A stretch of DNA of 64,000 nt, from positions 25,969,379-26,033,378 of the forward strand of contig OX235263.1 in NCBI GenBank assembly GCA_944472135.2. Direction: 5' to 3'. The notes beneath the pieces are model-generated. The model made no database searches, had not been told where the DNA came from, and saw only the letters and a program-made list of their open reading frames with translations. The stretch is from Trichobilharzia regenti. Lineage: Eukaryota; Platyhelminthes; Trematoda; Strigeidida; Schistosomatidae. Below are positions 1,105-42,102 of this stretch, piece by piece. The position numbers and the translations under genes were made by a program. The stretch's first letter is position 1, and every line of letters starts with the position of its first letter.

Positions 1105-1109
1105 ATAAT

Positions 1110-1120
1110 TGGTGAACCCG
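1110..1120 (+). promoter_or_regulatory. Primer binding site (tRNA-Trp type)
   Basis: TGGTGAACCCG lies five bases after the 5' LTR. It matches the complement of the 3' end of tRNA-Trp at 10 of 11 bases (the tRNA would predict TGGTGACCCCG). This fits the primer use reported for CsRn1-type elements. Confidence 0.65.
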
Positions 1121-1290
1121 TTTCGAACCTTTTTTATGGTTAACCCGTTTTCGAACCTTTTTGTTTCGATAGTTAACTCGTTTTGAACATTTTTGTTGCT
1201 ATTTTGGTCTTATAAACTCACATTGCTTTAATTTTTGTTACTACAAGTTTTGCTATTTTGTATATCTCTATACTTATATATTATATAGCA

Positions 1291-2180: not shown

Positions 2181-5100
2181 ATGGCGATGGTTGTTACTGG
2201 CAATCACCCCAGTCGCCTTTTCGATGTGAGGGATTTGACTACCGGCACATTATTCCTGGTAGATACAGGCGCCGAGGTCAGTGTTATTCCCCCCTCACTA
2301 TCCAGGCGATCAGCCAAAATACCTGGTAAACTTTCACTCCGTGCTGCCAACCAAACCAACATACAGACGTATGGCGAACAGTCAATGATTTTAAACTTAG
2401 GACTACGCCGACGTTTCACATGGATCTTCATAGTAGCTGACGTACGTCACGCTATACTAGGTGCAGACTTCCTAAGTCACTTCAATCTGTTAGTTGATAT
2501 CAGCAAGAAAAAACTGTTGACAATTGCACCCAACTCAAGATCCATGGTATTACATGTGACTACTCTGTTCATAGCATCTGTATAGAGAAGCCGGAGAGTG
2601 AAATGTTCTCTGCTTTATTGACAACGATTTCCTAAAATCCTTAAACCATCATACAACGTCGAAGATATATCTCATACAGTTACGCATAAGATCATCACAA
2701 CAGGACAACCTGTGAAGGCACGTCCACGACGGTTACCACCCGATAAACTAGCAGCAGCTAAGTCGGAATTCGAACATATGATGCAGCTAGGCATCATACG
2801 ACCATCTAACAGTCCATGGTCTTCACCTTTGCATATGGTACCTAAAACTAATCATGACTGGCGACCATGTGGAGATTATCGCGCTTTGAATAACGCTACG
2901 GTCCCAGACCGTTATCCTATACCTCATCTCCACGACTTCTCCTTGACCTTACATGGAAAGACCATTTTTACTAAAGTTGACTTGGTCAGGGCATATCATC
3001 AAATACCAGTCGCTCCAGAAGACATTGCAAAAACAGCAATTATTACGCCTTTTGGATTATTCGAATTCTTGAGAATGCCTTTCGGACTAAAGAATGCTGC
3101 TCAAACATTTCAGCGTTTTATGGACCAAGTTACCCAAGGTCTTGATTTCGTCTTTGTATACATCGACGATGTCTTAATCGCCAGCTCATCGATGGAAGAA
3201 CATATGGAACACTTAAGTCTGTTATTTCAAAGGTTTGAACAATTTGGAGTTGTTATCAATCCAAAGAAATGTATTTTTGGTTCCCCTTCCATTGAATTCT
3301 TAGGACATCGAATAACTGCCGAAGGCATCAGACCTACCGAAGATAAGATAAAAACTATTAAGAACTTTCCCGAACCTGATTCCTTAAAGAAACTTAGACG
3401 TTTTCTCGGGATGTTCAACTTCTACCGACGTTTTATTCCATCATGTGCCTCCATAGTTCAACCACTGACCGACCTACTTAGATGCAATTCGAAGAAATTT
3501 CAGTGGTCTGAAGAAGTAAAAGCAGCATTTAATAATGCAAAAGATGCCTTATCCAACGTTGTAATGTTATCTCACATCAACCCAGAAGCTTCACTCATTT
3601 TATGTACAGATGCATCGCAGGTAGCAGTGGGAGCAGTTTTACAACAAAAGTTCAATAATGACACCACTCCACTTGCTTTCTTCTCCAAGAAATTGGAACC
3701 TGCGCAAACTCGTTACAGCACTTTTGGCAGAGAACTGTTAGCCATCTACCTAGCAGTTAAACATTTCAGCTTCCTACTACAAGGTCGACATTTTACTATC
3801 TTAACCGACCATAAGCCTCTTTGTTATGCTTTCACCACTTCGTTGGACAGACACTCTTCGAGAGAAGCCAGACAACTGGATTATATATCACAATTCTCAA
3901 CAGACATCCAGTTCATCAAAGGAGATTCCAAAATCGTAGCCGATTCTTTGTCTCGATGTGACGTTAATCACCTTCTATCTTCGATAGATATTAGCTTAGA
4001 CAATATAGCCAAGCTGCAGAAAAATGACGCCGAACTTCATACTTGCAGACGAAACTCCTCCCTACAGTTGCAGGATGTACCTATTCCCCTGTCTGATACA
4101 ACTATCGTCTGCGACGTTTCAACGGGCGTTCATAGACCTTTTGTTCCACTAAGTTGTCGAAAACCTTTGTTTGAACATCTACATTCTTGTGTCATCCTGG
4201 AGTGCGTGCTACGGTCAAGTTAATCAGCGAGCGTTTTGTTTGGCCCAAGATGAACTCCGATATTCGGAAATGGGCCCGCCAATGCTTGCAATGTCAAAGA
4301 TCCAAGGTACATCATCATACCGTCACACCTCCAAAACAGTTCAATTTACCGATAAACGATTTCAACACGTTCATATAGATATTATTGGACCATTACCGCC
4401 ATCCAGAGGATTTACTCATATACTTACTGCTATTGATCGATTTACCCGATGGCTATTGCTTGTCCACTCAACGACATATCCGCAGAAAATACCGCTTTGG
4501 TTTTCTTAGATCGTTGGGTGTAAAACTACGGAGTACCAACAACTATTACAACAGACCGAGGAGCTCAATTTCAAATCAGTCTGTTTCGAGAGTTTACGAG
4601 ACTCCTTGGAGTGAACCATATCTCCACTACAGCTTATCATCCTGCAGCGAATGGTCTGGTGGAACGCTTCCATCGACAACTGAAAAGCTCACTAATGGCA
4701 CAAGCTGACTCATCTAAGTGGAGTGAACACCTACCATTAGTTCTTCTCAGTATCCGATCAACTGTCAAAGAAGATTTGGGATAAACACCAGCTCAACTTG
4801 TGTATGGTGCTACCCTCACATTGCCTGGTCAGTTGGTTCCATCTAATGATTCAATTGAAGTAAATATCTCCGACTTCACCAACCGCCTTACCCAGCAAAT
4901 GCTCCAGCTTCGACCAGTAGCCCCTCGCCAATCACTTCAGAAAGCTCAAGTTAATAAGAATCTACTCATTTGCAGATTTGTATTTTTTCGCGTCGATGCC
5001 ATTAGAAAAGGTTTACAACATCCATATGAAGGTCCTTTTCTAGTACTTAAACGCACCGATAAATACTTCACGCTGAACAAATATGGTAAACCGGAGACTG

Positions 5101-5288
5101 TTTCTATCGACCGTCTTAAACCAGCGTACACCGACAGCGAATATGAAACACTACCAACGCCGGCACCAATAAACAATCAGAAAGTCAATGCAACTCCAAC
5201 TCTCCCGCTCTTCACACTTCCCCCTGTACAGACACGCAGTGGACGGCAGATCTGTAAACCTGCCCGCTATGTTCATTTTATTGACTGA
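2181..5288 (+). pseudogene. pol of the Gypsy element (PR-RT-RNaseH-IN), frameshifted
   Basis: The aspartic protease DTGA motif lies at 2262-2273 in a frame that stops at 2583-2585. The same frame reopens and runs 2712-4223 through reverse transcriptase (catalytic YIDD at 3159-3170, [13 protein letters not shown] upstream) and RNase H (TDAS near 3608, TDHKPL near 3810). The integrase is broken: the HHCC finger is in one frame (about 4187-4300), the first catalytic Asp region (HIDIIGPLPP) in another (about 4370-4470), and later the [15 protein letters not shown] segment in a third. The C-terminal part 4800-5288 keeps a GPY/F-type motif (HPYEGPFLVL). The enzyme set is recognisable but could not be translated as one protein. 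Confidence 0.9.
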
Positions 5289-5731
5289 CATAAACGTTAA
5301 CCTCATTTAGACATTCTTCTCATTACTATTGTTGTCGGCATTGATTTCATTATAACCATTAATATTTATTAGTATTATTGTTTGCTGTTCGTTAACTGTA
5401 CTGCAAGCACACGCATTCACCAAGTATATGTATATTTCTATTTATATATGAATTTCACAAATGTTAACGAACATGTCATGGTTTATTATGTACATAAATT
5501 TTTTATTTAAAATTATAACAAGTTTTGATTTTTTTTAAATTCCTGTATGTGCTTGTATGTGCTAAACTTTATACGACACGGATGCATTCCATACATCCTG
5601 ATCTAACTTTGTATCTTTATTGTTGTCGATGTTTTTTTTGTTATCCTTATTGTTGATATTATCCCTTATTTATATTGCTTATATTCATGTAATCGTCCAC
5701 GAGGACAGTACTGATGGTCCTCCGGACCTCT
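5289..5731. other. 3' untranslated part of the Gypsy element
   Basis: T-rich sequence between the end of pol and the polypurine tract. No gene is seen in it. Confidence 0.6.
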
Positions 5732-5742
5732 AAGAGGGGGAG
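5732..5742 (+). promoter_or_regulatory. Polypurine tract
   Basis: AAGAGGGGGAG lies just before the 3' LTR, in the position used to prime plus-strand DNA synthesis. Confidence 0.8.
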
Positions 5743-5745
5743 CCC

Positions 5746-6207
5746 TGTGGAGTCCTCAAAAATAAACTTATCCAAATTTTACTGCTATGTAAGAAATGAA
5801 CATATTGTACACTACTTTGTTTTAACCATAAACTCTGTACTTTGACTTTACCTCGGGTTTTGAATAAATATATAGTTCTGACTTCGACTCTCCATCTTCT
5901 CCACCGTCTCAACTGCCGTCGATCAATTTTAATCACCTGCTTTCTATCTCAGATTTTTGCAGGAGCACCGTAGTTTCTTCCTACGTACTTTGGTCGACCT
6001 CCGGAAACGTCAACATTGGAGAATTAGTACTGGAGCAGTCTTCCCGCAGCGCCTCTGGAGTCCATTACGTTTATTGTGGATTTTTGGATCTTTGTAAACC
6101 CAAGTAACGAAACTTTAATATATTCTTCCCGTAACTAAACTGATTTGGTATTTTATTTTCTATTTGAATTTGGGTAACTAAGCTAACAGAGTAAAAGGTC
6201 CACCACA
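5746..6207 (+). repeat. 3' LTR of Ty3/Gypsy element
   Basis: Starts TGTGGAGTCC and ends CCACCACA; matches the 5' LTR over its length apart from a few differences such as CTCAAAAAT for CTCGAAAAT. GATT follows it at 6208-6211, completing the target duplication. Confidence 0.95.
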
Positions 6208-6887: not shown

Positions 6888-8080
6888 ATGGAATGGCAAA
6901 CAAACCTCTACCTCAACTTTATCGACTTTGATAAGGCCTTCGATAGCGCTAACCGCGAAGTAATTTGGAAACTAAGGTGTACCCCAAATATTCATCAACC
7001 TTATTCAACAGCTGCACGACAACGGCACATGTCAAATGATCCACAACGGAAAACTCAGCGAGGCGTTTGGAATAAACACAGGAGTCAGACAAGGGTGCTT
7101 ATTATCACCAATGATATTCCTAATTGTGGCGGACTGAAATATTCGGGAAACGAGAAGACAGGGATGTCCTGGACCGACTGACGCGAAGAACCTAGAAGAC
7201 CTCGTTTGCTCGAGGTGATGATTTATGTTTGATGTCACAAAAAATCGAAGACTAAAAAGCGGAAACCGAAAAACTGACCGAAACAGCAGGTAGTGAAGAC
7301 AAGACTCCAGGTGAAAATAGACAAGATGGAGGTTATGAAAATAACCAACTACCACCACCACCAACACCAACAACAGCAACATCCAGCGTCAATCACCATC
7401 AACGAACGGGATTTGAAAGGGGTTACTTCATTCACTTATCTAGGGAGCATTCTCTCAACAACAGGGAGTGGGAACGGACGAGGATGTCAAATTGAGAACC
7501 GATTAGGCGAGAAAAACATTCATCAACCTGGAACCAATCTGGAAATCTTCGTCACTCAGCCAACATCAACAACAAAATCCAGTCGGATTTTCAATACAAA
7601 CGTCAAGTCAGTCAGTTCTTCTATGCGGATCAGAAACTTGGCGGACAGGTCACAAAGAATATTTCCAACAGTCTGTTGCAGACCTTTATTAACAACTGTC
7701 TTCGCTGGATCTATACTGAAGATCAGATGGCCGGGCCGGAAAGAATCACCAACAAGGAACTATGGGAACAAACAAAACAAGAAACAATCGCCCAACAAAT
7801 ATGCAGGAGAAAGTAGATGGAGATGGATCGGACACTCGCTGAGGAGACCGCTGGGTGACTCGCGCGTCAAGCACTCGAGTGAAACCCGAAAGGGAAGCGG
7901 CGAGTGGGAAATCAGTGCTTGGGTGACATCGAGGAGATGGTGTGAATAGGAGTTGAAAGAGTATGGACTAAAATGGATGTAGGTGAAAAGTACAGCAGAA
8001 AACAGAAGCAAGTGGAGACGTCCATTTGAAGCCCTATGTTCACCGTAGGAACTCGAGGGAACAATAACAATAATAAGACC
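6888..8080 (+). mobile_element. RTE-like non-LTR retrotransposon fragment (outer, left)
   Basis: A plus-strand reverse-transcriptase relic: LYLNFIDFDKAFDSANREVIWKL near 6900, followed by frames from the rest of RT and the C-terminal region (SFTYLGSILSTTGS near 7430, RWRWIGHSLRR near 7815). It ends in an (AAT/AAC)-rich tail near 8055-8080. Several stops and frame changes are present. The part from about 7286 lies in the left palindrome arm and is mirrored at 19720-20513; 6888-7285 has no counterpart there. Its tail ends about 65 bases from the stop codon of the MEG-like gene, which it faces. Confidence 0.75.
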
Positions 8081-8144
8081 TTCACTTCGTAGAGAGTAGC
8101 TTCATAGTTCACGATAAACGTAGTATGACAGTCACTGTCAATTG

Positions 8145-11100
8145 TTATTTAGCCGAATAATTTGACAAACATCTGTCTGTGAAATAGGAAGGATAAAAGT
8201 TGTGGAACATTCTTCCACAAAGCAATGACATGTTTCGAATTACCTTCAGTGCGACTAACCGACAGAAGACTATCACATTCACTTAAATCCGGCTGTTGTC
8301 CGATACCTATTCAAGAAGAAAGAATAATATTGACGGTATTTCGTCGGCTACAATGAACATGGTGTGTTCAGTATTACTGATCACCAGTATTCTGTGATTT
8401 GACTTACGGCTTGGACGGGCTGAAATACACAGACGTCAACACATACAAACATATTACTCGTTTATCATAACATTGGAAATAATGTGTACGTGTAGGTTGT
8501 GAATTTCGCCAACCTGTTGATGAAGTGAAAGTGATTCTTGGTGGGTAAACAATGACTGAAAGATGTTAAGAGGGAGAAACCTGAAGTTTCGAATCTTCAT
8601 AGGAATTGACCATGAGTCCATGAGCTGCTCATCTTCGGATTAGGCGGTATGCACACTGTTCCCAACTAGGTTTCATTTGCTCCCAATTCACCTCTGAACA
8701 CTGTGAGCGGCTGGGCATCAACTATTCAAAACGACGTGCTCATTCACAAAACGATTTTAGTGAGTAGCATCGGAGAGTAATCACCTGTTTTGTTTTTGAC
8801 AGTCTCACAAACAAACCGAGTCCCAACACACTGGCACTGGTTCACAAAGTGACAACAGACGTATACAAAATCACTACTGGATGTCAATTATTGTGTAGTG
8901 ACTGACAAATTCATTCAAATATCCAACAGATAAACACATCTGTCTTCCAGTCACACACCTGCGCTATCAACGATAACTAAGTTAGCATTTAAATACGTTG
9001 ACTTGGCCAGAAGAATGAGAAACCGTAAGCAGAAGTGAAACTAATCTGCCCAACCAATAATATCAGTGCTTACATTGAGATCCATGGATTAATGATTCCT
9101 TCCAGAGAGTTCTACTCTGAGGTATGGAGAAGAAATTCCCTGAATAAAATGCAAAAAGGACAGAATATTTATCGACCAGTAGTTTAAAAATCACGTGTCA
9201 CACTGGTCGAATGGCACAAATTCAATGGATAATTTCATGTTTGTCTCCCCATCTGGGAAATATTAGTGGCCTATAGGTCAGGCTTTTCAGCGAGTAAATC
9301 AACTGAGTCAGTTTTGTCAACATCTTTCGCCATTACGTATCACTGAGCAGAGATTGGATGAAATGCTAGATAGGCTTGTAGTCTCCTATACTGGTTGTAT
9401 CCAAGTGACTGAAAGTGAAATTTGGGATGAGCATCTTAAGCAGCTGAAAGCAGTCTGCCACACTCACACTCATCTTTCAACAGCAGCAGTGTGACACAAC
9501 TCAATTTCATTCACAAATCAGCCTCGACACTTCGCCGATTGAAATGCAAAGCGAACAAGATCAAACAGAATGTGGTATGAATTATGAGGGCGTACTTACC
9601 GTATGCCTGCCGCACCCTATAGATGCTCCGTGAAATGCCTGAGGAAATAAATCAATACGTGACAAATTCGCGATAGACAACAATTGGGATAATAAAAGGC
9701 GATTAATTCTTAACCAGAAGATACCCAAGTTGAATAGGTAGCACTATTCAGACATATTGTTTCAACAACTGAACGTCAGCCTTCACATGTCTGTGTGATA
9801 TTCAGTAGTGGCGTTAATTCAAAGTCTATTTAACGAGAGATTTCAATAGTCTAGTAAATTTTTTTGCAGGTTAAAGATGAACAACAAACATTTCACTTAC
9901 TTCTGTAAATATCCGGTTGGTAGTAGTGTTGAGAAATATTGGATAGACAATTCGCAACTAAAAGAACGATTATTTCTCAATATTGATTAAATTTGTTGAC
10001 TTACACGCAGTGATACTTTTACCCGTTTCTCTGGCCTGTCTTTCCAAGCGGGCTGGAGTGAGAAAGAGACAAACAGTTTGTTGCAAGACACTGGAGACAG
10101 TGTTGTCAATATTGCTCGCTTCTCAAATATTGAAATAAAAGCTGATGAATAAACGGACGGTAGTGTGGCATCACCAGTTCTCTGTCTCCAATGATACCTA
10201 GATATTGATGTTTACACACATTTGAACAGCATTTGACAATTGTTTACTGCATGTTCATGCACAAAGTATTTAACATCCTCCAGCGACTAGTAATGCGAAA
10301 CCGCAGATTCACTTCAAAACACAAAATCTATGTACGAAACACCTCGAAACTGATATTAGTTATATTGTGATTGTCATCGATTTACAGGTTATAAAGCTAC
10401 ATCACACCACTGACATCCTTAGTAGGGAGGGTAAATAGAGGCTGTGAACACTCCACGTTTGTTGAAGGATTATGACAGGGGAGGAAGAGAGGGTTACGTG
10501 TGGAGCTTAGTTATCTTGTAGTTGCAAGTGATACCATTGTGACTAATAAATATCACTAGAAACATCATCCAGGGAATAAACCTCTTTCACTCTGTCATAT
10601 GTCCAACAATCACATTAATTTTCAACTGTACACTACCACTAACACAGAGTTGAAGTAACACGCATACTATTGAGTCGAAGCATCACCGACACAACAAATT
10701 AAGAAATAACATACAAAATTTCACATGGTAAGTAAAATCAGGCTTGTAAAAGCACCTTCCAATGTGTTCACTTCTTCTTCCACAGTGGCTTTCCGATTAT
10801 TGACATCCACTATACTGTCTGTAAAACAATTGCAAATGTTCCACAAATGAATTATTAATGACTATAGAAATCATGGTTAATGTCAAAACTGATCATCAGT
10901 CACTCTGAATTCGTCTACATTCACAAAGGGTTTCAGTGTTACACGCTGAATATGCTTCCATCAATCAACTCAAACGCAGATAATTGCAAATTCGGAGAGA
11001 ATACGATAAATCATTCGACAAATAAAAATGAAAATGAACGTAGACTCTATTACTTCATCAAATGTTAGGCGAATGTATGAAATATTGAAGAACATTGAAT

Positions 11101-13371
11101 AGAATTTGCTTACTTTCAAACATGCTGATGATAATTTCTAAATCATGTATCTCTCGAGCAAGACGATTCGCATCTTCAAAACAAGAAGGCTAAGCGTCAA
11201 TTCATTGCATTAAGCTCGATCGAATGTTATGACTTGTTCAATTTCAAGAATGAGTGACATAGAGAAAATGTGTGCTGGCATGTTTCCCATTTTATGAGAC
11301 TGAACAATACTGGTTGATATGTTCAATGAGTGGCGTATTGAAGAGAATATCCCAGTCGAGAATACGGAACGATACTGCTTGACATATCCTCTCACTCACT
11401 CCAGAAGAAGTAACTTTTGTCCTGCTCGAGAATCCTAGTTCTCAAACCGAATTCAGGGGTTAACTGCCACAGATGCAAACTGACTAGCTTCTCACCACAA
11501 CCACCTACCCAATGTGAATACATTGAGGATTCATCTTTTCACTCTTAGGAAATATGAAATGATGAAGTCGATTCCCGCATATCCACAGCATGCAGACTCC
11601 CAGAGTTCAACGCTATCGTCCTGCTGGACTAGATGAATTTGTTTCACTTGCTGCATTTCTTTGCAGGATTTACATGATGTATCACCACCAGACTATTCGA
11701 TAATAGCCTAAAATTAGCTGACAAACTACCAATTGTGGAGAACAATATTCAAAAGCTTGACATCTATTATGACTAATCACCACCATTGTCTCCAATTTTA
11801 CAAAATTTCGTAATCGATTTCAGCCTAGCACGTTTGTCACACAAATACGACTATTTATTTTGACACCCCATAACTAATCTGTTATTCTACGTTAAAAATG
11901 TATCCGCCACATAACTGGTCTTTATTGTAACGACAACAAATGTTATATTTTATAATTGTAAGAACCTGAAGAGAGATTATTGGAAAGAATATTATTCGTT
12001 CAGATTGACTTTCAATTCATTGTAGAATCCCGAATATTCATTCCTGAGGTGACTGGATATTCGACAAGCAACTTCACATTTCAAAAGAATTTACAAGTCA
12101 GAAACAATCGGATTATAGCAGACTAATGGCAACATGAATGCTTAAATTACTGTTCAATGTGCAATGGCTCACAGTAATTCTGAGTATTTCCAACAGCTTC
12201 TGAAAAGGAGAAATATTTAACAATATTTAATAATAATAATAAATTTAATAATATGCGAAACAGGCGGAACTGACGAAGATATCAAAGCCAGAATCGGAAA
12301 AGCAAGGCAAGCTTTCATTAATCTTAAGTCTGTGTGGAAGTCAACAGCACTCAGCATCAAAAATAAGATCCGGATTTTCAACTCCAATGTAAATGCAGTG
12401 CTACTATACGGATCAGAGACTTGGCGAGTCATAAAGAGCACCTCAAACAAACTTCAAACCTTCATTAACAATTGTCTTCGCACAATACTCAAGATCAGAT
12501 GCCCTGGCAGAAAAGACCAGCAACAGGGATCTCTGGGAGCGAAACAATCAGGAACCGATTATGAAACAAATATGCAGGAAGAAATGAAGATGGATTGGCC
12601 ATACTCTGAGGAAACCATCAAGTGACATCACTAGACAAGCCACCGCTCAAGTGGATCCCGAAAAGGAAGCAGCGAGTTGGTCGTCCAACGGTGACTTGGA
12701 GGAGGTCATGTGAGGAGGAGATGTAAGCATGTGGACAGACTGGAAGCGGGGTGAAAAAGTTGGCAGAAAACAGAAGGAAATGGAGGTGCGCAGCTGAAGA
12801 CCTATGTTCCTCTAGGAACTAAAGGATATAATAATAAATAATGAAGCTTAGCATATTTAATCGCACGAATCACTAGATCAACAGAGAGGGACAGTCGTTC
12901 ATCTATTATTTCGTGGATAGACCACCTAAATACTTGTGCACTCAATCTGCACTGAGTACGTGTTTCAAATTGATGCGACTCAAGATGAGTTTGGAGTCAT
13001 GAAAATGAAATCATCAATGTACACAATTCGTGCAACAGAAACGTATGCAATGTATGCGAGTTCGTGTTATCGGTGTGTGTCAGATAAATGAATAGATTGG
13101 GTTGTCATGCCGTACCTCAAATTCATCAGAAAATGATATTCATATCGACGTCTGATAGATCTGATCGAATCGAGTGGTTCATACATTCACACAAATCACT
13201 GATTATCACATAGTTGTCAGAAGTGAGTTATCTACTTTCAAGGTAGTTTCAAAATATTTAAAGTGCAATATATACACACAACGAAATTAACTGGCACTTA
13301 CCTGTCAGTGGAGATGAATGCAGGAGAAGGAGGAACACAGTGATTTCTAATGATAGGAAAGCGAAAGCCAT
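8145..13371 (-). CDS. Micro-exon-gene-like secreted protein, left copy
   Basis: Mirror image of the gene at 14428-19654; function, domains and caveats are as given there. Exons in transcription order: 13371-13302, 12199-12173, 11173-11114, 10818-10756, 10052-10005, 9957-9901, 9638-9600, 9139-9074, 8721-8692 (weak), 8555-8514, 8419-8408, 8306-8244, 8176-8145. All splice signals and every exonic base I compared are the same as in the right copy, so both would encode the same 202-residue protein. The start codon is at 13371-13369, facing the right copy across 1056 bases. Intron 1 contains an RTE fragment, and another RTE tail starts about 65 bases past the stop codon. Confidence 0.72.
12226..12841 (+). 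mobile_element. RTE-like 3' fragment in intron 1 of left MEG copy
   Basis: A plus-strand fragment, antisense to the MEG, encoding the RTE C-terminal region: SIKNKIRIFNSNVNAVLLYGSETW at about 12350-12420, and LRTILKIRCPGRKDQQ near 12480. It ends in an AATAATAAATAATG tail near 12840. It is 5' truncated, as is usual for target-primed insertion. Its edge lies about 25 bases from exon 2 of the MEG. The identical fragment is in the right arm, so it predates the duplication or was copied by conversion. Confidence 0.8.
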
Positions 13372-13400
13372 GATTATGTGTAATTCCGTGAAATCTGATG

Positions 13401-13408
13401 TATATATA
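13401..13408 (-). promoter_or_regulatory. TATA-like box, left MEG copy
   Basis: TATATATA, 30 bases upstream of the minus-strand ATG at 13371. The mirror site is at 14391-14398. It would imply a very short 5' leader; not tested. Confidence 0.4.
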
Positions 13409-14390
13409 TGAATTTGTATTCTAGAGATTCAAATGAACAAATGAAGGACGCGAAGATATCGGACCATTTCGAGGTGACTCTAGTTTATGTTATGTCCACG
13501 TGGTCATGGCGTGATTATCATTATTAAAAGCAAATTGACCTTTATCAGGGAATGTAGACAGTTTTCTTCAAACAAGGTGTAATTATTCAGACAGAAAAGG
13601 CGAAATTTGGTATTATTTCTTATGAGAATTTCTTCACTGTAATAACTTTTTCTTGTGTTAGCAGAGGGTGGGAACAAGGAATATTGTTTAGAAAGCATTG
13701 CCTTCAGTGTATTGTAGTCATGCGTTATCAATAAGGGCAGTTTATTTGATGGATACATCTGTTACCTTGAATGACTGATTGCTTATATGCTGACGAAATA
13801 TGTGATATTTCTGTGAGAAATATGGTGAGGTGACTGTAAATATCACTGAATTACTTAACACTATGTTGTAAAATGTATAAATACCATGTGTTGTTTTCCT
13901 AATAATTTGTATTACAATATACAGTACCATAAAGCTTCTCACAGTCACAGGCCAGCCTTTTTCTTCGGATGTTTGCGTGGCTCAGTAAATCGGAAGGTAC
14001 CAGAAGCATATAAGCATATTGGCGTACCAGTTGAGTTCATTATAGTCATTAGCGTAATAACAATAATTAGTGGGCGCAAACATAACAAAGTGACTGCGGT
14101 TCTCATACATTTTAATGCAATTATAACACCGACCATCTTCTAACACAAGAATAAGTTATTACAGTGAAGAAATTCTCATATGAAATAATACCAAAATTTA
14201 CCTTTTCTTTCTGAATAATTACACCTTCTTTGAAGAAAATTGTTCACATTCTGTAATAGAGTTCAATTTATTTATAGTAGTGATAATCATGCCAAGAATA
14301 ATTGGACGTAAGTAATTAAAGTTACTTGGAAATGGTCCGATATCTTCGCGTCCTTCATTTGTTCATTTGAATCTCTAGAATACAAATTCA

Positions 14391-14398
14391 TATATATA
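14391..14398 (+). promoter_or_regulatory. TATA-like box, right MEG copy
   Basis: TATATATA, 30 bases upstream of the ATG at 14428; mirrored at 13401-13408. Confidence 0.4.
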
Positions 14399-14427
14399 CA
14401 TCAGATTTCACGGAATTACACATAATC

Positions 14428-17400
14428 ATGGCTTTCGCTTTCCTATCATTAGAAATCACTGTGTTCCTCCTTCTCCTGCATTCATCTCCACTGACAGGTA
14501 AGTGCCAGTTAATTTCGTTGTGTGTATATATTGCACTTTAAATATTTTGAAACTACCTTGAAAGTAGATAACTCACTTCTGACAACTATGTGATAATCAG
14601 TGATTTGTGTGAATGTATGAACCACTCGATTCGATCAGATCTATCAGACGTCGATATGAATATCATTTTCTGATGAATTTGAGGTACGGCATGACAACCC
14701 AATCTATTCATTTATCTGACACACACCGATAACACGAACTCGCATACATTGCATACGTTTCTGTTGCACGAATTGTGTACATTGATGATTTCATTTTCAT
14801 GACTCCAAACTCATCTTGAGTCGCATCAATTTGAAACACGTACTCAGTGCAGATTGAGTGCACAAGTATTTAGGTGGTCTATCCACGAAATAATAGATGA
14901 ACGACTGTCCCTCTCTGTTGATCTAGTGATTCGTGCGATTAAATATGCTAAGCTTCATTATTTATTATTATATCCTTTAGTTCCTAGAGGAACATAGGTC
15001 TTCAGCTGCGCACCTCCATTTCCTTCTGTTTTCTGCCAACTTTTTCACCCCGCTTCCAGTCTGTCCACATGCTTACATCTCCTCCTCACATGACCTCCTC
15101 CAAGTCACCGTTGGACGACCAACTCGCTGCTTCCTTTTCGGGATCCACTTGAGCGGTGGCTTGTCTAGTGATGTCACTTGATGGTTTCCTCAGAGTATGG
15201 CCAATCCATCTTCATTTCTTCCTGCATATTTGTTTCATAATCGGTTCCTGATTGTTTCGCTCCCAGAGATCCCTGTTGCTGGTCTTTTCTGCCAGGGCAT
15301 CTGATCTTGAGTATTGTGCGAAGACAATTGTTAATGAAGGTTTGAAGTTTGTTTGAGGTGCTCTTTATGACTCGCCAAGTCTCTGATCCGTATAGTAGCA
15401 CTGCATTTACATTGGAGTTGAAAATCCGGATCTTATTTTTGATGCTGAGTGCTGTTGACTTCCACACAGACTTAAGATTAATGAAAGCTTGCCTTGCTTT
15501 TCCGATTCTGGCTTTGATATCTTCGTCAGTTCCGCCTGTTTCGCATATTATTAAATTTATTATTATTATTAAATATTGTTAAATATTTCTCCTTTTCAGA
15601 AGCTGTTGGAAATACTCAGAATTACTGTGAGCCATTGCACATTGAACAGTAATTTAAGCATTCATGTTGCCATTAGTCTGCTATAATCCGATTGTTTCTG
15701 ACTTGTAAATTCTTTTGAAATGTGAAGTTGCTTGTCGAATATCCAGTCACCTCAGGAATGAATATTCGGGATTCTACAATGAATTGAAAGTCAATCTGAA
15801 CGAATAATATTCTTTCCAATAATCTCTCTTCAGGTTCTTACAATTATAAAATATAACATTTGTTGTCGTTACAATAAAGACCAGTTATGTGGCGGATACA
15901 TTTTTAACGTAGAATAACAGATTAGTTATGGGGTGTCAAAATAAATAGTCGTATTTGTGTGACAAACGTGCTAGGCTGAAATCGATTACGAAATTTTGTA
16001 AAATTGGAGACAATGGTGGTGATTAGTCATAATAGATGTCAAGCTTTTGAATATTGTTCTCCACAATTGGTAGTTTGTCAGCTAATTTTAGGCTATTATC
16101 GAATAGTCTGGTGGTGATACATCATGTAAATCCTGCAAAGAAATGCAGCAAGTGAAACAAATTCATCTAGTCCAGCAGGACGATAGCGTTGAACTCTGGG
16201 AGTCTGCATGCTGTGGATATGCGGGAATCGACTTCATCATTTCATATTTCCTAAGAGTGAAAAGATGAATCCTCAATGTATTCACATTGGGTAGGTGGTT
16301 GTGGTGAGAAGCTAGTCAGTTTGCATCTGTGGCAGTTAACCCCTGAATTCGGTTTGAGAACTAGGATTCTCGAGCAGGACAAAAGTTACTTCTTCTGGAG
16401 TGAGTGAGAGGATATGTCAAGCAGTATCGTTCCGTATTCTCGACTGGGATATTCTCTTCAATACGCCACTCATTGAACATATCAACCAGTATTGTTCAGT
16501 CTCATAAAATGGGAAACATGCCAGCACACATTTTCTCTATGTCACTCATTCTTGAAATTGAACAAGTCATAACATTCGATCGAGCTTAATGCAATGAATT
16601 GACGCTTAGCCTTCTTGTTTTGAAGATGCGAATCGTCTTGCTCGAGAGATACATGATTTAGAAATTATCATCAGCATGTTTGAAAGTAAGCAAATTCTAT
16701 TCAATGTTCTTCAATATTTCATACATTCGCCTAACATTTGATGAAGTAATAGAGTCTACGTTCATTTTCATTTTTATTTGTCGAATGATTTATCGTATTC
16801 TCTCCGAATTTGCAATTATCTGCGTTTGAGTTGATTGATGGAAGCATATTCAGCGTGTAACACTGAAACCCTTTGTGAATGTAGACGAATTCAGCGTGAC
16901 TGATGATCAGTTTTGACATTAACCATGATTTCTATAGTCATTAATAATTCATTTGTGGAACATTTGCAATTGTTTTACAGACAGTATAGTGGATGTCAAT
17001 AATCGGAAAGCCACTGTGGAAGAAGAAGTGAACACATTGGAAGGTGCTTTTACAAGCCTGATTTTACTTACCATGTGAAATTTTGTATGTTATTTCTTAA
17101 TTTGTTGTGTCGGTGATGCTTCGACTCAATAGTATGCGTGTTACTTCAACTCTGTGTTAGTGGTAGTGTACAGTTGAAAATTAATGTGATTGTTGGACAT
17201 ATGACAGAGTGAAAGAGGTTTATTCCCTGGATGATGTTTCTAGTGATATTTATTAGTCACAATGGTATCACTTGCAACTACAAGATAACTAAGCTCCACA
17301 CGTAACCCTCTCTTCCTCCCCTGTCATAATCCTTCAACAAACGTGGAGTGTTCACAGCCTCTATTTACCCTCCCTACTAAGGATGTCAGTGGTGTGATGT

Positions 17401-19654
17401 AGATTTACAACCAGTAATTCGATGATAGTCACAATATAACTAATATCAGTTTCGAGGTGTTTCGTACATAGATTTTGTGTTTTGAAGTGAATCTGCGGTT
17501 TCGCATTACTAGTCGCTGGAGGATGTTAAATACTTTGTGCATGAACATGCAGTAAACAATTGTCAAATGCTGTTCAAATGTGTGTAAACATCAATATCTA
17601 GGTATCATTGGAGACAGAGAACTGGTGATGCCACACTACCGTCCGTTTATTCATCAGCTTTTATTTCAATATTTGAGAAGCGAGCAATATTGACAACACT
17701 GTCTCCAGTGTCTTGCAACAAACTGTTTGTCTCTTTCTCACTCCAGCCCGCTTGGAAAGACAGGCCAGAGAAACGGGTAAAAGTATCACTGCGTGTAAGT
17801 CAACAAATTTAATCAATATTGAGAAATAATCGTTCTTTTAGTTGCGAATTGTCTATCCAATATTTCTCAACACTACTACCAACCGGATATTTACAGAAGT
17901 AAGTGAAATGTTTGTTGTTCATCTTTAACCTGCAAAAAAATTTACTAGACTATTGAAATCTCTCGTTAAATAGACTTTGAATTAACGCCACTACTGAATA
18001 TCACACAGACATGTGAAGGCTGACGTTCAGTTGTTGAAACAATATGTCTGAATAGTGCTACCTATTCAACTTGGGTATCTTCTGGTTAAGAATTAATCGC
18101 CTTTTATTATCCCAATTGTTGTCTATCGCGAATTTGTCACGTATTGATTTATTTCCTCAGGCATTTCACGGAGCATCTATAGGGTGCGGCAGGCATACGG
18201 TAAGTACGCCCTCATAATTCATACCACATTCTGTTTGATCTTGTTCGCTTTGCATTTCAATCGGCGAAGTGTCGAGGCTGATTTGTGAATGAAATTGAGT
18301 TGTGTCACACTGCTGCTGTTGAAAGATGAGTGTGAGTGTGGCAGACTGCTTTCAGCTGCTTAAGATGCTCATCCCAAATTTCACTTTCAGTCACTTGGAT
18401 ACAACCAGTATAGGAGACTACAAGCCTATCTAGCATTTCATCCAATCTCTGCTCAGTGATACGTAATGGCGAAAGATGTTGACAAAACTGACTCAGTTGA
18501 TTTACTCGCTGAAAAGCCTGACCTATAGGCCACTAATATTTCCCAGATGGGGAGACAAACATGAAATTATCCATTGAATTTGTGCCATTCGACCAGTGTG
18601 ACACGTGATTTTTAAACTACTGGTCGATAAATATTCTGTCCTTTTTGCATTTTATTCAGGGAATTTCTTCTCCATACCTCAGAGTAGAACTCTCTGGAAG
18701 GAATCATTAATCCATGGATCTCAATGTAAGCACTGATATTATTGGTTGGGCAGATTAGTTTCACTTCTGCTTACGGTTTCTCATTCTTCTGGCCAAGTCA
18801 ACGTATTTAAATGCTAACTTAGTTATCGTTGATAGCGCAGGTGTGTGACTGGAAGACAGATGTGTTTATCTGTTGGATATTTGAATGAATTTGTCAGTCA
18901 CTACACAATAATTGACATCCAGTAGTGATTTTGTATACGTCTGTTGTCACTTTGTGAACCAGTGCCAGTGTGTTGGGACTCGGTTTGTTTGTGAGACTGT
19001 CAAAAACAAAACAGGTGATTACTCTCCGATGCTACTCACTAAAATCGTTTTGTGAATGAGCACGTCGTTTTGAATAGTTGATGCCCAGCCGCTCACAGTG
19101 TTCAGAGGTGAATTGGGAGCAAATGAAACCTAGTTGGGAACAGTGTGCATACCGCCTAATCCGAAGATGAGCAGCTCATGGACTCATGGTCAATTCCTAT
19201 GAAGATTCGAAACTTCAGGTTTCTCCCTCTTAACATCTTTCAGTCATTGTTTACCCACCAAGAATCACTTTCACTTCATCAACAGGTTGGCGAAATTCAC
19301 AACCTACACGTACACATTATTTCCAATGTTATGATAAACGAGTAATATGTTTGTATGTGTTGACGTCTGTGTATTTCAGCCCGTCCAAGCCGTAAGTCAA
19401 ATCACAGAATACTGGTGATCAGTAATACTGAACACACCATGTTCATTGTAGCCGACGAAATACCGTCAATATTATTCTTTCTTCTTGAATAGGTATCGGA
19501 CAACAGCCGGATTTAAGTGAATGTGATAGTCTTCTGTCGGTTAGTCGCACTGAAGGTAATTCGAAACATGTCATTGCTTTGTGGAAGAATGTTCCACAAC
19601 TTTTATCCTTCCTATTTCACAGACAGATGTTTGTCAAATTATTCGGCTAAATAA
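14428..19654 (+). CDS. Micro-exon-gene-like secreted protein, right copy
   Basis: Reconstructed from splice signals and phase. Exons (length): 14428-14497 (70), 15600-15626 (27), 16626-16685 (60), 16981-17043 (63), 17747-17794 (48), 17842-17898 (57), 18161-18199 (39), 18660-18725 (66), 19078-19107 (30, weak), 19244-19285 (42), 19380-19391 (12), 19493-19555 (63), 19623-19654 (32, stop). All internal exons are multiples of three and split codons after base 1; donors include GTAAGT after exons 1, 5, 6, 7 and 11, and acceptors mostly have strong pyrimidine tracts. Total 609 bases, 202 residues. Exon 1 encodes a signal peptide (MAFAFLSLEITVFLLLLHSS). Exons 3-5 are charged and heptad-like, suggesting a coiled coil. 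Three cysteines lie in exons 6, 12 and 13. This is the design of schistosome MEGs, whose secreted products vary by exon skipping. No named MEG family was recognised. The exon 4 donor (GTGCTT) is weak, the last exon could start at 19627 with a different stop, and no AATAAA was seen before the RTE tail at 19721. Confidence 0.75.
14958..15573 (-). mobile_element. RTE-like 3' fragment in intron 1 of right MEG copy
   Basis: Exact mirror of the fragment at 12226-12841, here on the minus strand and again antisense to the MEG. Its 5'-truncated edge is about 25 bases from exon 2, whose acceptor tract (TATTTCTCCTTTTCAG) follows directly. Confidence 0.8.
19380..19391 (+). other. 12-base micro-exon of the right MEG copy
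   Basis: CCCGTCCAAGCC sits between an acceptor ending TGTATTTCAG and a donor GTAAGTC. It adds ARPS-type residues without changing phase. It is the shortest exon of the set and the one with the cleanest signals for its size. The mirror is at 8408-8419. Confidence 0.7.
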
Positions 19655-19720
19655 CAATTGACAGTGACTGTCATACTACGTTTATCGTGAACTATGAAGC
19701 TACTCTCTACGAAGTGAAGG

Positions 19721-20530
19721 TCTTATTATTGTTATTGTTCCCTTGAGTTCCTACGGTGAACATAGGGCTTCAAATGGACGTCTCCACTTGCTTCTGTTTT
19801 CTGCTGTACTTTTCACCTGCATCCATTTTAGTCCATACTCTTTCAACTCCTATTCACACCATCTCCTCGATGTCACCCAAGCACTGATTTCCCACTCGCC
19901 GCTTCCCTTTCGGGTTTCACTCGAGTGCTTGACGCGCGAGTCACCCAGCGGTCTCCTCAGCGAGTGTCCGATCCATCTCCATCTACTTTCTCCTGCATAT
20001 TTGTTGGGCGATTGTTTCTTGTTTTGTTTGTTCCCATAGTTCCTTGTTGGTGATTCTTTCCGGCCCGGCCATCTGATCTTCAGTATAGATCCAGCGAAGA
20101 CAGTTGTTAATAAAGGTCTGCAACAGACTGTTGGAAATATTCTTTGTGACCTGTCCGCCAAGTTTCTGATCCGCATAGAAGAACTGACTGACTTGACGTT
20201 TGTATTGAAAATCCGACTGGATTTTGTTGTTGATGTTGGCTGAGTGACGAAGATTTCCAGATTGGTTCCAGGTTGATGAATGTTTTTCTCGCCTAATCGG
20301 TTCTCAATTTGACATCCTCGTCCGTTCCCACTCCCTGTTGTTGAGAGAATGCTCCCTAGATAAGTGAATGAAGTAACCCCTTTCAAATCCCGTTCGTTGA
20401 TGGTGATTGACGCTGGATGTTGCTGTTGTTGGTGTTGGTGGTGGTGGTAGTTGGTTATTTTCATAACCTCCATCTTGTCTCTTTTCACCTGGAGTCTTGT
20501 CTTCATTATCTGCTTCTTCGACCAGTTTGT
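19721..20530 (-). mobile_element. RTE-like fragment (outer, right)
   Basis: Mirror of the RTE tail at 7270-8078. It begins at its 3' tail (TCTTATTATTGTTATTG on the plus strand, about 19721) just after the MEG stop and breaks off around 20530. Past 20513 it is related to the left copy but diverged, so the arm boundary falls inside this element. Confidence 0.75.
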
Positions 20531-20599
20531 CTACTTACTTATAAATACCCTGATAATTCTTCTTTCAGAGAACTTTCCACTGACCGTATTTCTAGGATT

Positions 20600-21130
20600 G
20601 TATTACTGCTAATATTATTGTTCTCTTGTGTTTCAAGTGGGACATAGGGCTTCAGCCGCTCCACATCTCCACTTCCTCCAATTCTTTGCAGTCCTTTTCA
20701 GCTGGCCTCAAGATTGCCTATGGTTTCTCATCAGCCCCCAATATGACCTTCTCAATGTCACTACCCTCAGGGACACTCCCTACTCGTCGATGTCCACTCA
20801 TGTCCTGTCCGAGAGATGGCCTGGTGAGCGATGTAAACCGATGGCCTCCTCAGCGTGTATCTGATGCATCTCCATTTCGTCCAGCGTATTTCTTGATCAG
20901 TAGGTTCCTGGGTGGTTGGTTTGTTCCTCGAGTTTCTTGTCGCTAATTTTCTCTGACCATTTGATTGATCTTCAATATGTAGGTAACGATGCGAGATATT
21001 GATAACCATCCACTGCCTACTGGAAATGCTGTGGCGTATATATATATATATATATTCAGTCTCCTGAGTTGGGTTGAATTGAGAAGTGAACACTGCTTCG
21101 CTCAATATTCCCGTCTTCCGAATAAGCAAT
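20600..21130 (-). mobile_element. RTE-like 3' fragment
   Basis: A third RTE tail on the minus strand. The translation carries the C-terminal pattern EIRWTKWRCIRYTLRRPS, equivalent to the RWRWIGHSLRR segment of the neighbouring fragment, and the plus strand shows the same TATTATTGTTCTC... tail at about 20610. It contains a short (TA)n run at 21037-21053. It adjoins the right end of the palindrome. Confidence 0.65.
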
Positions 21131-21208
21131 GCTTCCTCCCATCCTCATTTGTCCACAAATCACCATGCCTATCCATGATATGTGCTTGCACTTTGCCTTC
21201 CTTTCCAG

Positions 21209-21277
21209 AAATAAACCAATTGACTCAACGGGTAATAAATCTCAGTCATTTGCAACACCTGTCAGTGATAGCTTATG
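21209..21277 (+). other. MEG-like exon (diverged paralogue)
   Basis: 69 bases between a strong acceptor (GCCTTCCTTTCCAG) and donor GTAAGTTG. It is phase 1 at both ends and open, encoding INQLTQRVINLSHLQHLSV and a few more residues. Length multiple of three and phase match the MEG exons in the arms. It is about 250 bases before the next candidate exon, close to the 262-base intron between exons 6 and 7 of the intact gene. Confidence 0.5.
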
Positions 21278-21523
21278 GTAAGTTGAAAAATTTGGAGTCG
21301 AGTATTTTGCAAGGCGCTTCCAACAGTCTAGTATGTCATAAAGGTTGAGTCGGAGGTGAGTTAGCATCTCACACTCAGATTTTTCGCGTACTATGCGGAT
21401 ACTTGTCTCGATGATTAGAAACGATGGACTTACAACTTTTTATCTGTTTTCTCACATGCGGCTGTTTAAGTATACATATCAAGTGGACCTTTTTTGACTA
21501 CAAACTCCATCTTCTCTTTATAG

Positions 21524-23269: not shown

Positions 23270-26250
23270 GAGACAAAGAAATAGTAATAACGAAGAACAA
23301 GACAGTTTCATTGAAAATCGTAAGTCACAAGGAGTTGGTGCATCTGCGCTGTCATTGAGAAGGATTTTAAGCCATATCACCAATTGTTTCCAACCATTGG
23401 TTTTTACAGTCCCGAAGAAGTCTGCACTTTTCTAAAAGGCTTAAACTAATTGTTGTAGATTTCATTGACTGGTAACATGTTTTGGTTTAACCGCCGCTAG
23501 CTCTTTTCCAGCCTGACCCTATGTCAGCTAACATTGCCCATAGAGTAAGGTGATGACTAGGCATTCGTCACACATGTCCTAACCATCTCAGTCGGTGTAA
23601 TTTCACAGCCTTGACGATCGATTTCTTCTCCTTACCTAGCACTTGACGCCTAACCTCAGTATTGCTCACCTTATTATACTACTTCACACGGGAGATAGAG
23701 CTCAGGCACCTATGATCAAAGACAGCTAATCTTTTCATGTCTTCCACTGTCAATGGCCAGGTCTCACAGCCATAAAGGAGGACGGAGTTGACTCATGAGA
23801 ATTACACCCGCCCTTTGGTCGATAGTCGGATATCACGTCTACGCCAGAGACGACGTAAATTGGCATATGCGAAACTAGCCCTCTGTATCCATGCTGAGAT
23901 TTTGTCAGAGATCAATCCGTTGGGGCTGATGATACTTCCCAAATAAGTGAAGCAGTCAACGTGCTCTACCACTTCACTTCCTATTTCTAATATAGGAGTC
24001 CGAGTAGTCCAGTCCTGTAACATCATCTTACATTTCAGGGGAGCGAATCGCATGCCAAACATTCGTAGATTGCAGCTCAATGTGTTCAGAAGACTCTACA
24101 TTTTGTCAGTGTCCTTGCCTAGAAGGACTATATCGTCTGCATATTCTAAGTCAACTAGATTATTCCCTGCTGGCAAGTCAATCCCTGAGTCGTTGAAGTG
24201 AGTTAGGGTTAAGTCCATCAGTACATCTATGATGAAATTGAATAGAAATGGGGATAATGGGCATCCCTGATGGACACCACCAGTCGTTACCACTTCAGGT
24301 GACAACTCGCCGTAAGCCCTCACCTGGCTGATGGCATGAGTTCGAGTAGAGTGCCGTGATCAGTGAAATGTATTTTCTCATCATTCCCTTTACAGCCAAG
24401 CATCGCGAGAGAACCTCTCGGTTGACAGAATTGAATTCCGCCTTCAGGTCAAAAAATATAATGACTGTTGGACGCCAGTAGGAATGCCTATGTTCTAGAA
24501 TCTGTCGGAGGGTGAAGATATGATCAATACACCCTCTTCTTGGTCTAAAGCCTGCCTGGCTCTCTCGTGTTTGTGCATCCAGAACACCACTTAGTCAACG
24601 CAATATTATTGAGCCTAGGACTTTAGATACTATATAAGTGTTATGTTGCTGCTGCTGAGTGGTTAATAGTAGTTTTCCCCGTCGCCAAATTGTTATGTAC
24701 TCGTCGCCAAATTATTGCTATGTACTGGTCGAGAATTTAATAGTCCTGACGCAAGAAGGCGGAAATCAGAAGACCACTAGGTTTGCGATGATACTTCTAT
24801 TTTCCAAACACAAGGAGACGCAATAAGTGGTATCACACCAAAGTAAGTCACACAAGATTGTGTGAGCGAAATATATATGAATGTCCAGACAAGTGTGTGA
24901 ACAAATCAATAGACAGTCTTAACATGAATGGCTAATTATAATGGAGTGTCGATCCATATATACATAGCAAAATATAGCAGACATGTCAACAACCACACAT
25001 ATAATATGGATATGTCACCAAGCAACGGACTGTCAACAAACACTCATATTATATATAATATAAGGGGAATATACATTGTTAAAGGAGACAGGTTCATCAA
25101 AGTGAAATGGTCACAGACTAAGCGAGCAAACAGAAAGAGAGACCACCATACACATATATATATATATATCAATAAGTCAAGCTAGTCCCTCTGTGATTAT
25201 CACAGGAAGACTTGTCTCCCTTCTTGTATATGGGGATAATCAGTGACTTTCAACAGCCCGACGGGACTTCCTCTGATTCCCAGACGTTGTTTAGTACTTC
25301 CTTTAATGCAGACAGTAAACTGCCTCCAACGTGCTTAAATACCTCTGGAGTTATTCCATCAGGTCCCGCTGCTTTGCCTTGTTTGAGATTGGTGACAGCT
25401 TTAGTTACCTCAGTTAAGGAAGGGGGATCTGTGTCTATATCTCATTCAGGGAGGTGTTGGATGTTCGGCAGGTTGAGCTTGGCTGTAGGCCAGTCAAACT
25501 GCTCCTCATAGTGTCCTTTCCAGCGTTCCAGTCGTCTATCCTGGGAGCTAATTACGGTACCATTTTTATCAGAGATTGTTTCACTTATCATTTGCCTTTT
25601 ACCACCTGTTTCCTTGATAAGCCTAAATAGTTGTCTGGTGTTACCAATCTCCGATGCCTTTTCCATCTCTTTCGCTTTTATCGCCGACCACTGTTCACGG
25701 GCTTTGCGAAGACTTCTTGTTAGTTTTCGTTTGAGTACCTTTCGCTCCTCATCATAATCGGAGCTCGCCGGAATCAGTCGTCTTGCGTCAATCAGTTCGG
25801 ATGAGGCGGTAGAGATCCAATAGCTCTTACTAACTTTTGGTTTTAGCCTATAATCAACTTTTACCGCTGTGTCTGCAGCTAACTGTATGTTGTGCCAGGC
25901 TACCTCAGGGAGGGTCCTGCTGTCAAACTCAGATACTCATTTCGTTATTTCTTCCTTAAATAGGGACTCAGTGTCTCGATCTAGTTGAGGACGTAACTGT
26001 TTCGCTGCCGTCAATTTCTTATGTCTATTTAGTCGTAAGCATAAACGTGCGCGAACCAGAGTGTGATCAGAGTCTACGCACGTGTTTCAGAAGGAGTGAA
26101 ATTCTTCTACTGACCCTCACCAACGATACCCTATCGCTACGTGGTCTATCTGAGTATAACTCAACCCTTCCTCTTACAGTTCATAAACTCTTGCATCCTA
26201 CCTATTCTTCTTTATTGTTCACCCTCAGTTTTTCCTGGTTTGCTTAAAAA
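23270..26250 (-). mobile_element. RTE-like non-LTR retrotransposon, degenerate, split by a solo LTR
   Basis: Minus-strand relic of an endonuclease-RT protein. Near 26080-26000 is the end of the endonuclease (VDSDHTLVRARLCLRL), then the linker (GNTRQLFRLIKETGGKRQ near 25630) and RT start (AAGPDGITPEVFKH near 25360). After the solo LTR come GVHQGCPLSPFLFNFIIDVL near 24270, the catalytic EYADDIVLL near 24140, YLGSIISPNG near 23940, and a C-terminal helical tail to about 23270. Stops and frame changes are scattered through it, and the 5' part is missing. RTE assignment is from sequence style and is not firm. Confidence 0.75.
24639..25171. mobile_element. Solo LTR
   Basis: A 533-base segment begins TGTTATGTTGCTGCTGCTGAG and ends ATATATATATCA (TG...CA). 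It is flanked by ATAAG on both sides (24634-24638 and 25172-25176). It interrupts the RT reading frame of the RTE-like element exactly at these points. This is the footprint left when the two LTRs of a retrotransposon recombine. A (TA)n run lies at its right end. No internal retroviral genes are present, and its sequence differs from the LTRs at 645 and 5746. Confidence 0.85.
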
Positions 26251-27243: not shown

Positions 27244-27528
27244 TCAGAATATGAGATAACATGGAGTTAGGTAATTCAGTGATGTGTTTGAACTGGCTAT
27301 TAGAATGTCATTCGAGTATGCATAGGCCACGACACTCTGAGTGAAGCGCTGGAAGATTTGGGAATCTTTGCATGAATCAAGGAAGATGTGTGGATTCTCG
27401 AGGAGACAGAAAATCGTGATGACGACAGCATTACAGAAATAAGCAGGATTAATGAAGGCCAGGTGATGAGTGAGCTTATTAAATGTAAGCGTGTCTCCTG
27501 AAGATGTAGTCATGCCCTGAGTCTTCAC
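27244..27528 (-). pseudogene. Gypsy reverse transcriptase relic
   Basis: The minus-strand frame has SQIFQRFTQSVVAYAYSNDI followed by LIASSNTS. It aligns with the AQTFQRF...YIDDILIASS core of Ty3/Gypsy RT, but the YxDD catalytic pair is replaced by SND. Upstream residues (AVVITIF) fit the TAI.TPFG region. It is short and unflanked by other pol parts. Confidence 0.55.
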
Positions 27529-42094: not shown

Positions 42095-42102
42095 CGAAAC
42101 AC

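Follow-up and report, generated by a model that had tools for sequence, protein, structure and literature searches.

A head-to-head gene pair in a palindrome

The DNA analysed here, referred to as the window, is a stretch of 64,000 nucleotides from Trichobilharzia regenti, a bird blood fluke of the trematode family Schistosomatidae (assembly GCA_944472135.2, contig OX235263.1; in our notation C2:25969379-26033378). In its left third lie two copies of a predicted gene with many short exons, placed head to head on opposite strands, each in one arm of a palindrome. This section describes the palindrome and its gene, which resembles the micro-exon genes (MEGs) of schistosomes; the following ones consider how the pair came about.

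The two arms (7268-13485 and 14314-20531) were recovered independently of a first-pass annotation of the same DNA, which had reported a constant mirror sum of 27,799 with no indel and a twin gene in divergent orientation. Both descriptions held: 6,169 of the 6,181 positions over 7286-13466 match at that sum with zero indels, and the same exon chain is found on both arms, on opposite strands. The longest arm-to-arm alignment (7268-13672 against 20531-14129) spans 6,405 columns at 99.13% identity. Within it, a core at 7294-13470 contains 10 mismatches in 6,177 bp (0.16%) and no indel, so that the gene bodies are 99.84% alike. Six of these ten mismatches are clustered within 26 bp (10371-10396), a clustering that none of 100,000 random placements of ten sites reproduced; we refer to this patch as the island.

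The palindrome is a real feature of the assembly, and its margins differ sharply from its core. At the inner margin, 8 of the 19 positions next to the core differ, followed past a 2-nt shift by 30 of 183; this shifted count replaces an ungapped count of 134 of 202, which the shift had inflated. At the outer margin, 6 of 23 positions next to the core differ. Compared with the core, the mismatch excess is significant at both the inner (30/183; Fisher p 3e-39) and the outer margin (p 1e-11). The margins at both core ends are thus homologous but diverged, and beyond them mirror identity is only at chance level. An alike tract set between margins of this kind is expected of a palindromic pair under gene conversion, and it is present here. 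The parts of the palindrome are listed below, where P1L and P1R denote the left and right copies, and A-type and B-type the two lineages of flanking DNA that distinguish them.

7268..13672, - strand: left arm with inner margin, copy P1L, A-type flanks (arm alignment; upstream identity to copies S24L and S25L)
14129..20531, + strand: right arm with inner margin, copy P1R, B-type flanks (arm alignment; upstream likeness to pairs P2, P3 and P4)
7294..13470 (mirror 14329-20505), no strand: near-identical core, left arm (10 mismatches in 6,177 bp)
13372..14427, no strand: intergenic spacer between both ATGs, including both upstream regions
13842..13843, no strand: approximate junction of A-type and B-type upstream DNA (upstream lengths 472 bp and 586 bp; about 2 bp overlap by eye)
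10371..10396 (mirror 17403-17428), no strand: intronic island of 26 bp with 6 differences, at which the left copy has the alleles of the tandem array (S24L)

Each arm contains a predicted 12-exon gene for a protein of 192 amino acids with a hydrophobic start, and no predicted exon differs between the arms. The right copy, on the + strand, is a chain of phase-1 exons that starts with the ATG at 14428 and ends with a stop in 19623-19655; its counterpart in the left copy is on the - strand. All ten internal exons (27, 60, 63, 48, 57, 39, 66, 42, 12 and 63 nt) are divisible by three; these exons of 12-66 nt make up 82% of the coding sequence and are separated by introns of 47-1,102 bp.

14428..14497, + (left 13302-13371): exon 1, signal-peptide-like start; its probe finds 31 copies, 81.4-100% identical, in the stretches read
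15600..15626, + (left 12173-12199): exon 2, 27 nt; placement in other copies unsure
16626..16685, + (left 11114-11173): exon 3, 60 nt; most diverged of the seven exons compared
16981..17043, + (left 10756-10818): exon 4, 63 nt
17747..17794, + (left 10005-10052): exon 5, 48 nt
17842..17898, + (left 9901-9957): exon 6, 57 nt
18161..18199, + (left 9600-9638): exon 7, 39 nt
18660..18725, + (left 9074-9139): exon 8, 66 nt; 65 nt in P2R and P3R
19244..19285, + (left 8514-8555): exon 9, 42 nt; uncertain, as only 5 of 21 other copies have the AG acceptor
19380..19391, + (left 8408-8419): exon 10, 12 nt
19493..19555, + (left 8244-8306): exon 11, 63 nt; least diverged of the seven exons compared
19623..19655, + (left 8144-8176): terminal exon, end of the reading frame and stop

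The gene model was scored as the highest-scoring series of in-frame exons whose lengths are multiples of three. The gene strand reached 64.9. For comparison, the maximum was 29.6 in 200 shuffles (scored in phase 1 only), 36.8 at other places in the window (96 scans, from two strands and three phases at each of 16 overlapping places) and 9.2 for the opposite strand; in its two other phases the gene strand scored 40.0 and 35.8, with some exons in common with the chain. Many symmetric phase-1 exons per copy, as first annotated, are thus borne out by the predicted chain. The number of exons had been put at 13; we find 12, plus two weak candidates of 9 and 30 nt that were part of the top-scoring chain. 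When the 30- and 42-nt exons were checked against six paralogs, the 30-nt candidate had no steady donor. Across 21 other copies of the gene, the AG/GT borders of the 57-, 39- and C-terminal 63-nt exons are kept in every copy that has these exons, and those of the 60-, 63- (exon 4), 48-, 66- and 12-nt exons in all but one or two. For exon 2, automatic placement in the remaining copies was unreliable, and the frames of the P5-P7 copies on contig C4 were left unjudged after that exon.

The N-terminus is hydrophobic on the Kyte-Doolittle scale, and the protein is probably secreted; both copies may be expressed. Protein searches with the whole predicted protein and with a 113-residue query returned no relative at E 1 or E 10, although these searches need shared words of five residues and may miss distant relatives. 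Against Pfam, NCBIfam and PDB, the predicted protein had weak matches only, and those from Pfam and NCBIfam were all below the curated cut-offs, as were the weak Pfam matches of three paralogs.

Two lineages are joined in the pair

The DNA upstream of the two copies comes from different lineages. The left upstream region (472 bp) is 100% identical to that of S24L (C2:25948269) and S25L (C2:25964720), which are tandem neighbours with the same orientation, whereas the right upstream region (586 bp) is 98.8-99.0% identical to those of the pairs P2, P3 and P4. Between A-type and B-type upstream DNA, that is, left versus right, identity is 81.8% over -300 to -100 (about 18% difference). As the 472 and 586 bp together fill the intergenic space, the join lies near 13842/13843. 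Beyond it, S24L and S25L agree with each other at 228 of 228 bases and either one with the left arm at only 22%. The same partition is found past the outer edge, where in two windows from +6100 to about +6400 P1L is 100% identical to S25L and P1R to P4R. By these flanking sequences, the window pair joins lineage A, a tandem array, and lineage B.

P4R lies on the small contig C415, which is likely to represent a second haplotype of the window locus, judging from its alignment: a gap-free alignment of 10,000 bp to window 39064-49063 shows 99.80% identity, and its right arm plus 930 bp beyond follow window 15579-21462 at 99.58%. The two stretches read from this contig (C415:1-10000 and C415:30001-40000) contain another palindrome, with B-type flanks on both sides and a 482-bp spacer. 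This is probably a structural difference between haplotypes. A break-and-join event with an overlap of about 2 bp would explain the window arrangement: a copy from the tandem array, with its A flanks, may have been set back to back with a copy of the B lineage.

Probable gene conversion between the arms

The bodies of the two copies do not follow the division seen in their flanks. P1L and P1R are 100% identical over +100 to +2300, a range in which P1R differs from P2R by 0-4%; between P1R and P4R the difference is 1.5-2.5% from +100 to +500 and 9.6% from +1100 to +1300, P4R lacking the intervening part. At the island, P1L has the S24L allele at six of six sites, and P1R has that of P2R and P4R at six of six and that of P3, S26L and S27R at five of six. 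P1R carries the P4R state at all ten core differences. Among the array copies, S25L is a near-identical duplicate of the left copy, and S24L is a mosaic: between -300 and about +1,900 its identity to the left arm is 99.5-100%, and beyond that it is 76-100% in patches. Of the informative columns among six C2 copies, 106 join P3L with P3R, 13 join P1L with P1R alone, 78 join the P1 arms with P4R and 22 with P2R (S24L and S25L were outside this count).

The combination of upstream regions that are 82% alike, bodies that are 99.84% alike and an island with array alleles therefore points to gene conversion from right to left. The right copy would have overwritten about 6.2 kb of the left one, a tract beginning some 100 bp before the ATG and extending beyond the 3' end. 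Conversion would have skipped a patch, so that the 26-bp remnant and the A-type upstream DNA remained in the left copy. The outcome would be a single predicted protein from two genes with different upstream DNA. That the arms were made alike by conversion had been proposed on first reading, and the lineage-specific DNA on both sides of the tract, together with the retained island, supports it.

A large family with further head-to-head pairs

Schistosome MEGs are multicopy and fast-changing. We searched the assembly (954 Mb, 548 contigs) with three probes, taken from intron 1, exon 1 and the 3' end, scoring the best 40 of 74 candidates for each. The probes match at least 41, 40 and 40 places, respectively. 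Merging 120 of the 121 probe rows by position, with one intron-1 row left out, gave a family of at least 59 entries, at least one of which is a single split gene (C2:26315162 and 26315687); entries found by one probe may include further splits, and small contigs may hold other haplotypes. Thirty of the 59 entries fall in the stretches read, and the other 29 were located only (including all those on C1 and C58, 8 of 13 on C3 and 5 of 6 on C261). The family is large, MEG-like and probably undescribed.

The exon-1 probe identifies 31 copies in the window and the fetched stretches, and among these are ten head-to-head pairs. The distance from ATG to ATG is about 1,057 bp in the window pair (P1), 1,719 bp in P2, P3 and P4, and 4.1-6.3 kb in P5-P10. 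Inverted arms are 99.83% alike in P2 (over 1,763 bp, where its left arm ends), 99.93% in P3 (over at least 9,647 bp, 7 mismatches), 97.9% in P4 (over 2,458 bp, at a contig end) and 98.5-99.6% in P5-P10. P4 is on C415 and P9-P10 are on another small contig, C383. On C4 (69107300-69215600), four family palindromes stand in a row within about 110 kb; in each of them the inverted arms share 99.15-99.55% identity. A tandem array of the family lies at C261:26668-115085, where the 3'-end probe has six matches on one strand at steps of about 17-18 kb. In the window itself, about 250 bp (27258-27506) have about 90% identity to DNA that lies close to the P2, P3 and P4 spacers.

Divergence among copies

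To compare exons with introns and to estimate the ratio of nonsynonymous to synonymous substitution rates (dN/dS), 21 pairs of seven copies were used. These were drawn from 15 copies with nine exons of reference length; the rest were near-duplicates or, in the case of S26L, contained stops. One of the seven, S32L, has a stop in the 66-nt exon, and the dN/dS count passes over this codon. In the 60-nt exon, 43.4% of sites differ, compared with 16.8% for the introns on either side (2.6-fold), and the exon is the more diverged in 21 of 21 pairs; exon 4 (63 nt) differs at 26.6% against 14.4% (20 of 21 pairs). The 48-, 57-, 39- and 66-nt exons exceed their introns in 18, 15, 13 and 12 of the 21 pairs. 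In the C-terminal 63-nt exon, 11.5% of sites differ against 15.9% in introns (0.72-fold), and the exon is higher in only 7 of 21 pairs. The 21 pairs are non-independent, and as flanks were aligned with gaps and exons without, the contrast is perhaps widened. Averaged over the pairs, dN/dS comes to 0.99 for nine exons; it is 1.05 for the variable group and 0.57 for the C-terminal exon. We read this pattern as diversifying change in the middle of the protein and constraint at its C-terminal end.

Weighing the alternatives

Several observations weigh against a simple history of joining and conversion within a functional family. At the four core differences outside the island, the P1L state is private at one, found only in S25L at two, and found in S25L, P2R and P3 at one. 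The junction of A and B flanks is seen in the chromosome contig only, C415 having B flanks on both sides. As for the gene, the 42-nt exon 9 is doubtful, with AG in 5 of 21 copies; P2R, P3R and S24L are broken, with an altered frame or exon length; S25L is broken by a deletion of about 1.58 kb and lacks about 15895-17471; and a dN/dS near 1 is also compatible with neutral decay in part of the family. As for the inverted layout, copies can share the 5' part without it, since P1L and P1R have this part in common with the tandem copies S24L and S25L. P1L also resembles S25L (99.86%) more than it does P1R (99.21%, with 300 bp upstream included). Identity within the C4 palindromes (99.64-99.79%, three pairs) is not above that between them (99.19-99.83%): arms differ at 12-17 sites within these three palindromes and at 10-42 between palindromes, and informative columns conflict. 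P8L, which is not alignable over its length (64-71% to its own group), was excluded from this comparison. Arms that are closer to each other than to other copies are found in P3, but not in the C4 palindromes or for P1L. The first-pass proposal that the inverted arrangement maintains the pair lacks support, as the tandem copy S25L is equally alike to the left arm wherever aligned, and C4 arms are no closer within a palindrome than to arms of neighbouring ones.

The three alternatives that we considered all fit some of these data. If one copy had recently been duplicated in inverted orientation, the arms would be alike simply because they are young; a difference of 0.16% with zero indels agrees with this, and the P3 arms (7 mismatches in 9,647 bp) could be such a case. 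We nevertheless consider it very unlikely for the window pair: the arms are flanked by different lineages on both sides, with margins that are homologous but diverged, although a fresh duplicate would carry its margins too, and the island retains array alleles. It is quite unlikely that an assembly error joined family copies from one or two haplotypes near 13,842 and that the worm lacks a pair of this form. The genome does contain many near-identical copies, and the probable haplotig C415 has a different structure and starts inside its own left arm, but the arms are not a single sequence that was assembled in two places (they differ by 10 substitutions, six of them in the island, with no indel), P1R and C415 are 0.6-2.5% apart in windows of -500 to +500, and palindromes with other spacers exist elsewhere in the assembly. 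A family that consists mostly of decaying copies, carried along by retroelement-rich duplications and with an exon signal that is a relic without function, would account for the dN/dS of 0.99 over nine exons in seven copies, for the broken copies and for the retroelement remnants in the arms. This too is unlikely, as decay alone would not produce the contrast between a 60-nt exon 2.6-fold above its introns in 21 of 21 pairs and a C-terminal 63-nt exon at 0.72-fold, and as splice sites and open frames persist in several copies that are about 76-86% alike. It is likely, in our judgement, that the window holds a head-to-head pair from a large, fast-changing MEG-like family of probable secreted proteins, in which two lineages were joined and the left copy was converted by the right.

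Other features of the window

Mobile elements occur within and around the palindrome. The arms contain two retroelement remnants, the first of which we take to be RTE-like:

7471..8074, + (mirror 19725-20328, -): retroelement remnant, left arm
12266..12842, + (mirror 14957-15533, -): another retroelement remnant, within intron 1 of P1L; Pfam DUF6451 in an overlapping open frame

Just left of the left arm is a reverse-transcriptase piece (E 0.0022, below the Pfam cut-off), which suggests that the outer edge of the left arm lies within a retroelement. Further left, a long terminal repeat (LTR) retrotransposon occupies 645-6207; its direct repeats (645-1104 and 5746-6207) are 99.35% identical over 462 columns, and its open frame (2622-4223) has Pfam reverse transcriptase and RNase H domains. 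To the right of the palindrome, an Rfam mir-3492 match at 23877-23954 (48.4 bits, cut-off 44) overlaps a retroelement remnant (23682-23933) and is probably a repeat rather than a microRNA gene. A type I hammerhead ribozyme is found at 31517-31562 on the - strand (37.7 bits, cut-off 34), and an ISXO2-like (DDE_Tnp_IS1595) transposase domain in an open frame at 35258-35881. The protein of a long interspersed nuclear element (LINE) at 39320-42220 is 99% identical to a Trichobilharzia regenti protein over 62% of the region searched; the next match, from Schistosoma bovis, is 53% identical.

Comparison with known systems and implications

The window palindrome can be compared with several gene arrangements known from other animals. 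Mammalian sex-chromosome palindromes are larger. They too hold genes in inverted repeats with conversion between arms, in another phylum (PMC6790999, in the part available). Linked palindromic copies with homogenised bodies and ectopic gene conversion are described for the Drosophila Hsp70 and Amylase pairs, and for Amylase also flanking regions that apparently evolve independently (PMC3924832, accessible text). The general layout, which the first-pass annotation did not know to be described, is thus known from these pairs. Unlike them, the fluke arms have flanks of two lineages, homogenised introns as well as exons, gene parts that change fast, and further family palindromes in the genome. 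In searches confined to an open-access library, we found no account of MEG copies in repeated palindromes or exchanging sequence by conversion.

As in schistosome MEGs, the first exon is hydrophobic, many short exons are divisible by three and there are 12 exons; the copies are likewise multiple and partly clustered, with retroelements nearby and fast protein change (PMC10526429; PMC4350168; accessible portions of both). Transposable elements have been proposed as linked to MEG duplication (PMC4350168, same portion). Under a strict definition, about 80% of the MEG coding sequence is in symmetric exons of 6-36 bp (PMC5825161, as far as its available text goes); here, only 6.7% of 580 nt are in internal exons of at most 36 nt. 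Both pattern searches of the predicted protein for the N-terminal motif that follows the MEG signal peptide (as given in the accessible part of PMC10526429) were empty. The gene does fit a looser description, which allows exons of up to 81 bp and asks for 10-20 short ones, most of them with lengths divisible by three, between longer introns; one of its ten internal exons is doubtful. In structure it resembles the MEGs, as first annotated, in this loose sense. It falls outside the strict definition, and protein searches at E 1 and 10, which may miss distant relatives, found no relative by sequence. The bicycle genes of aphids also have many small internal exons of one phase, are putatively secreted and have diverged beyond sequence search (PMC9168663, available part). 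They are insect genes without evidence of common descent, and the parallel is structural only.

The window pair points to a large gene family without a relative in two protein searches, and it would offer, if the proposed history is true, a measurable case of conversion, in which the flanks mark the lineages, the tract has definite limits and an island keeps its former alleles. We suggest, tentatively and as a speculative possibility, that recurrent palindromes are a working part of protein variation at a presumed host interface, with conversion moving coding variants between different upstream regions and tandem arrays supplying diverged donors. If so, conversion would put the same variant under another control. 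If the proposed history is true, it would give the parasite a concrete route by which to spread and shuffle variants of its secreted proteins.

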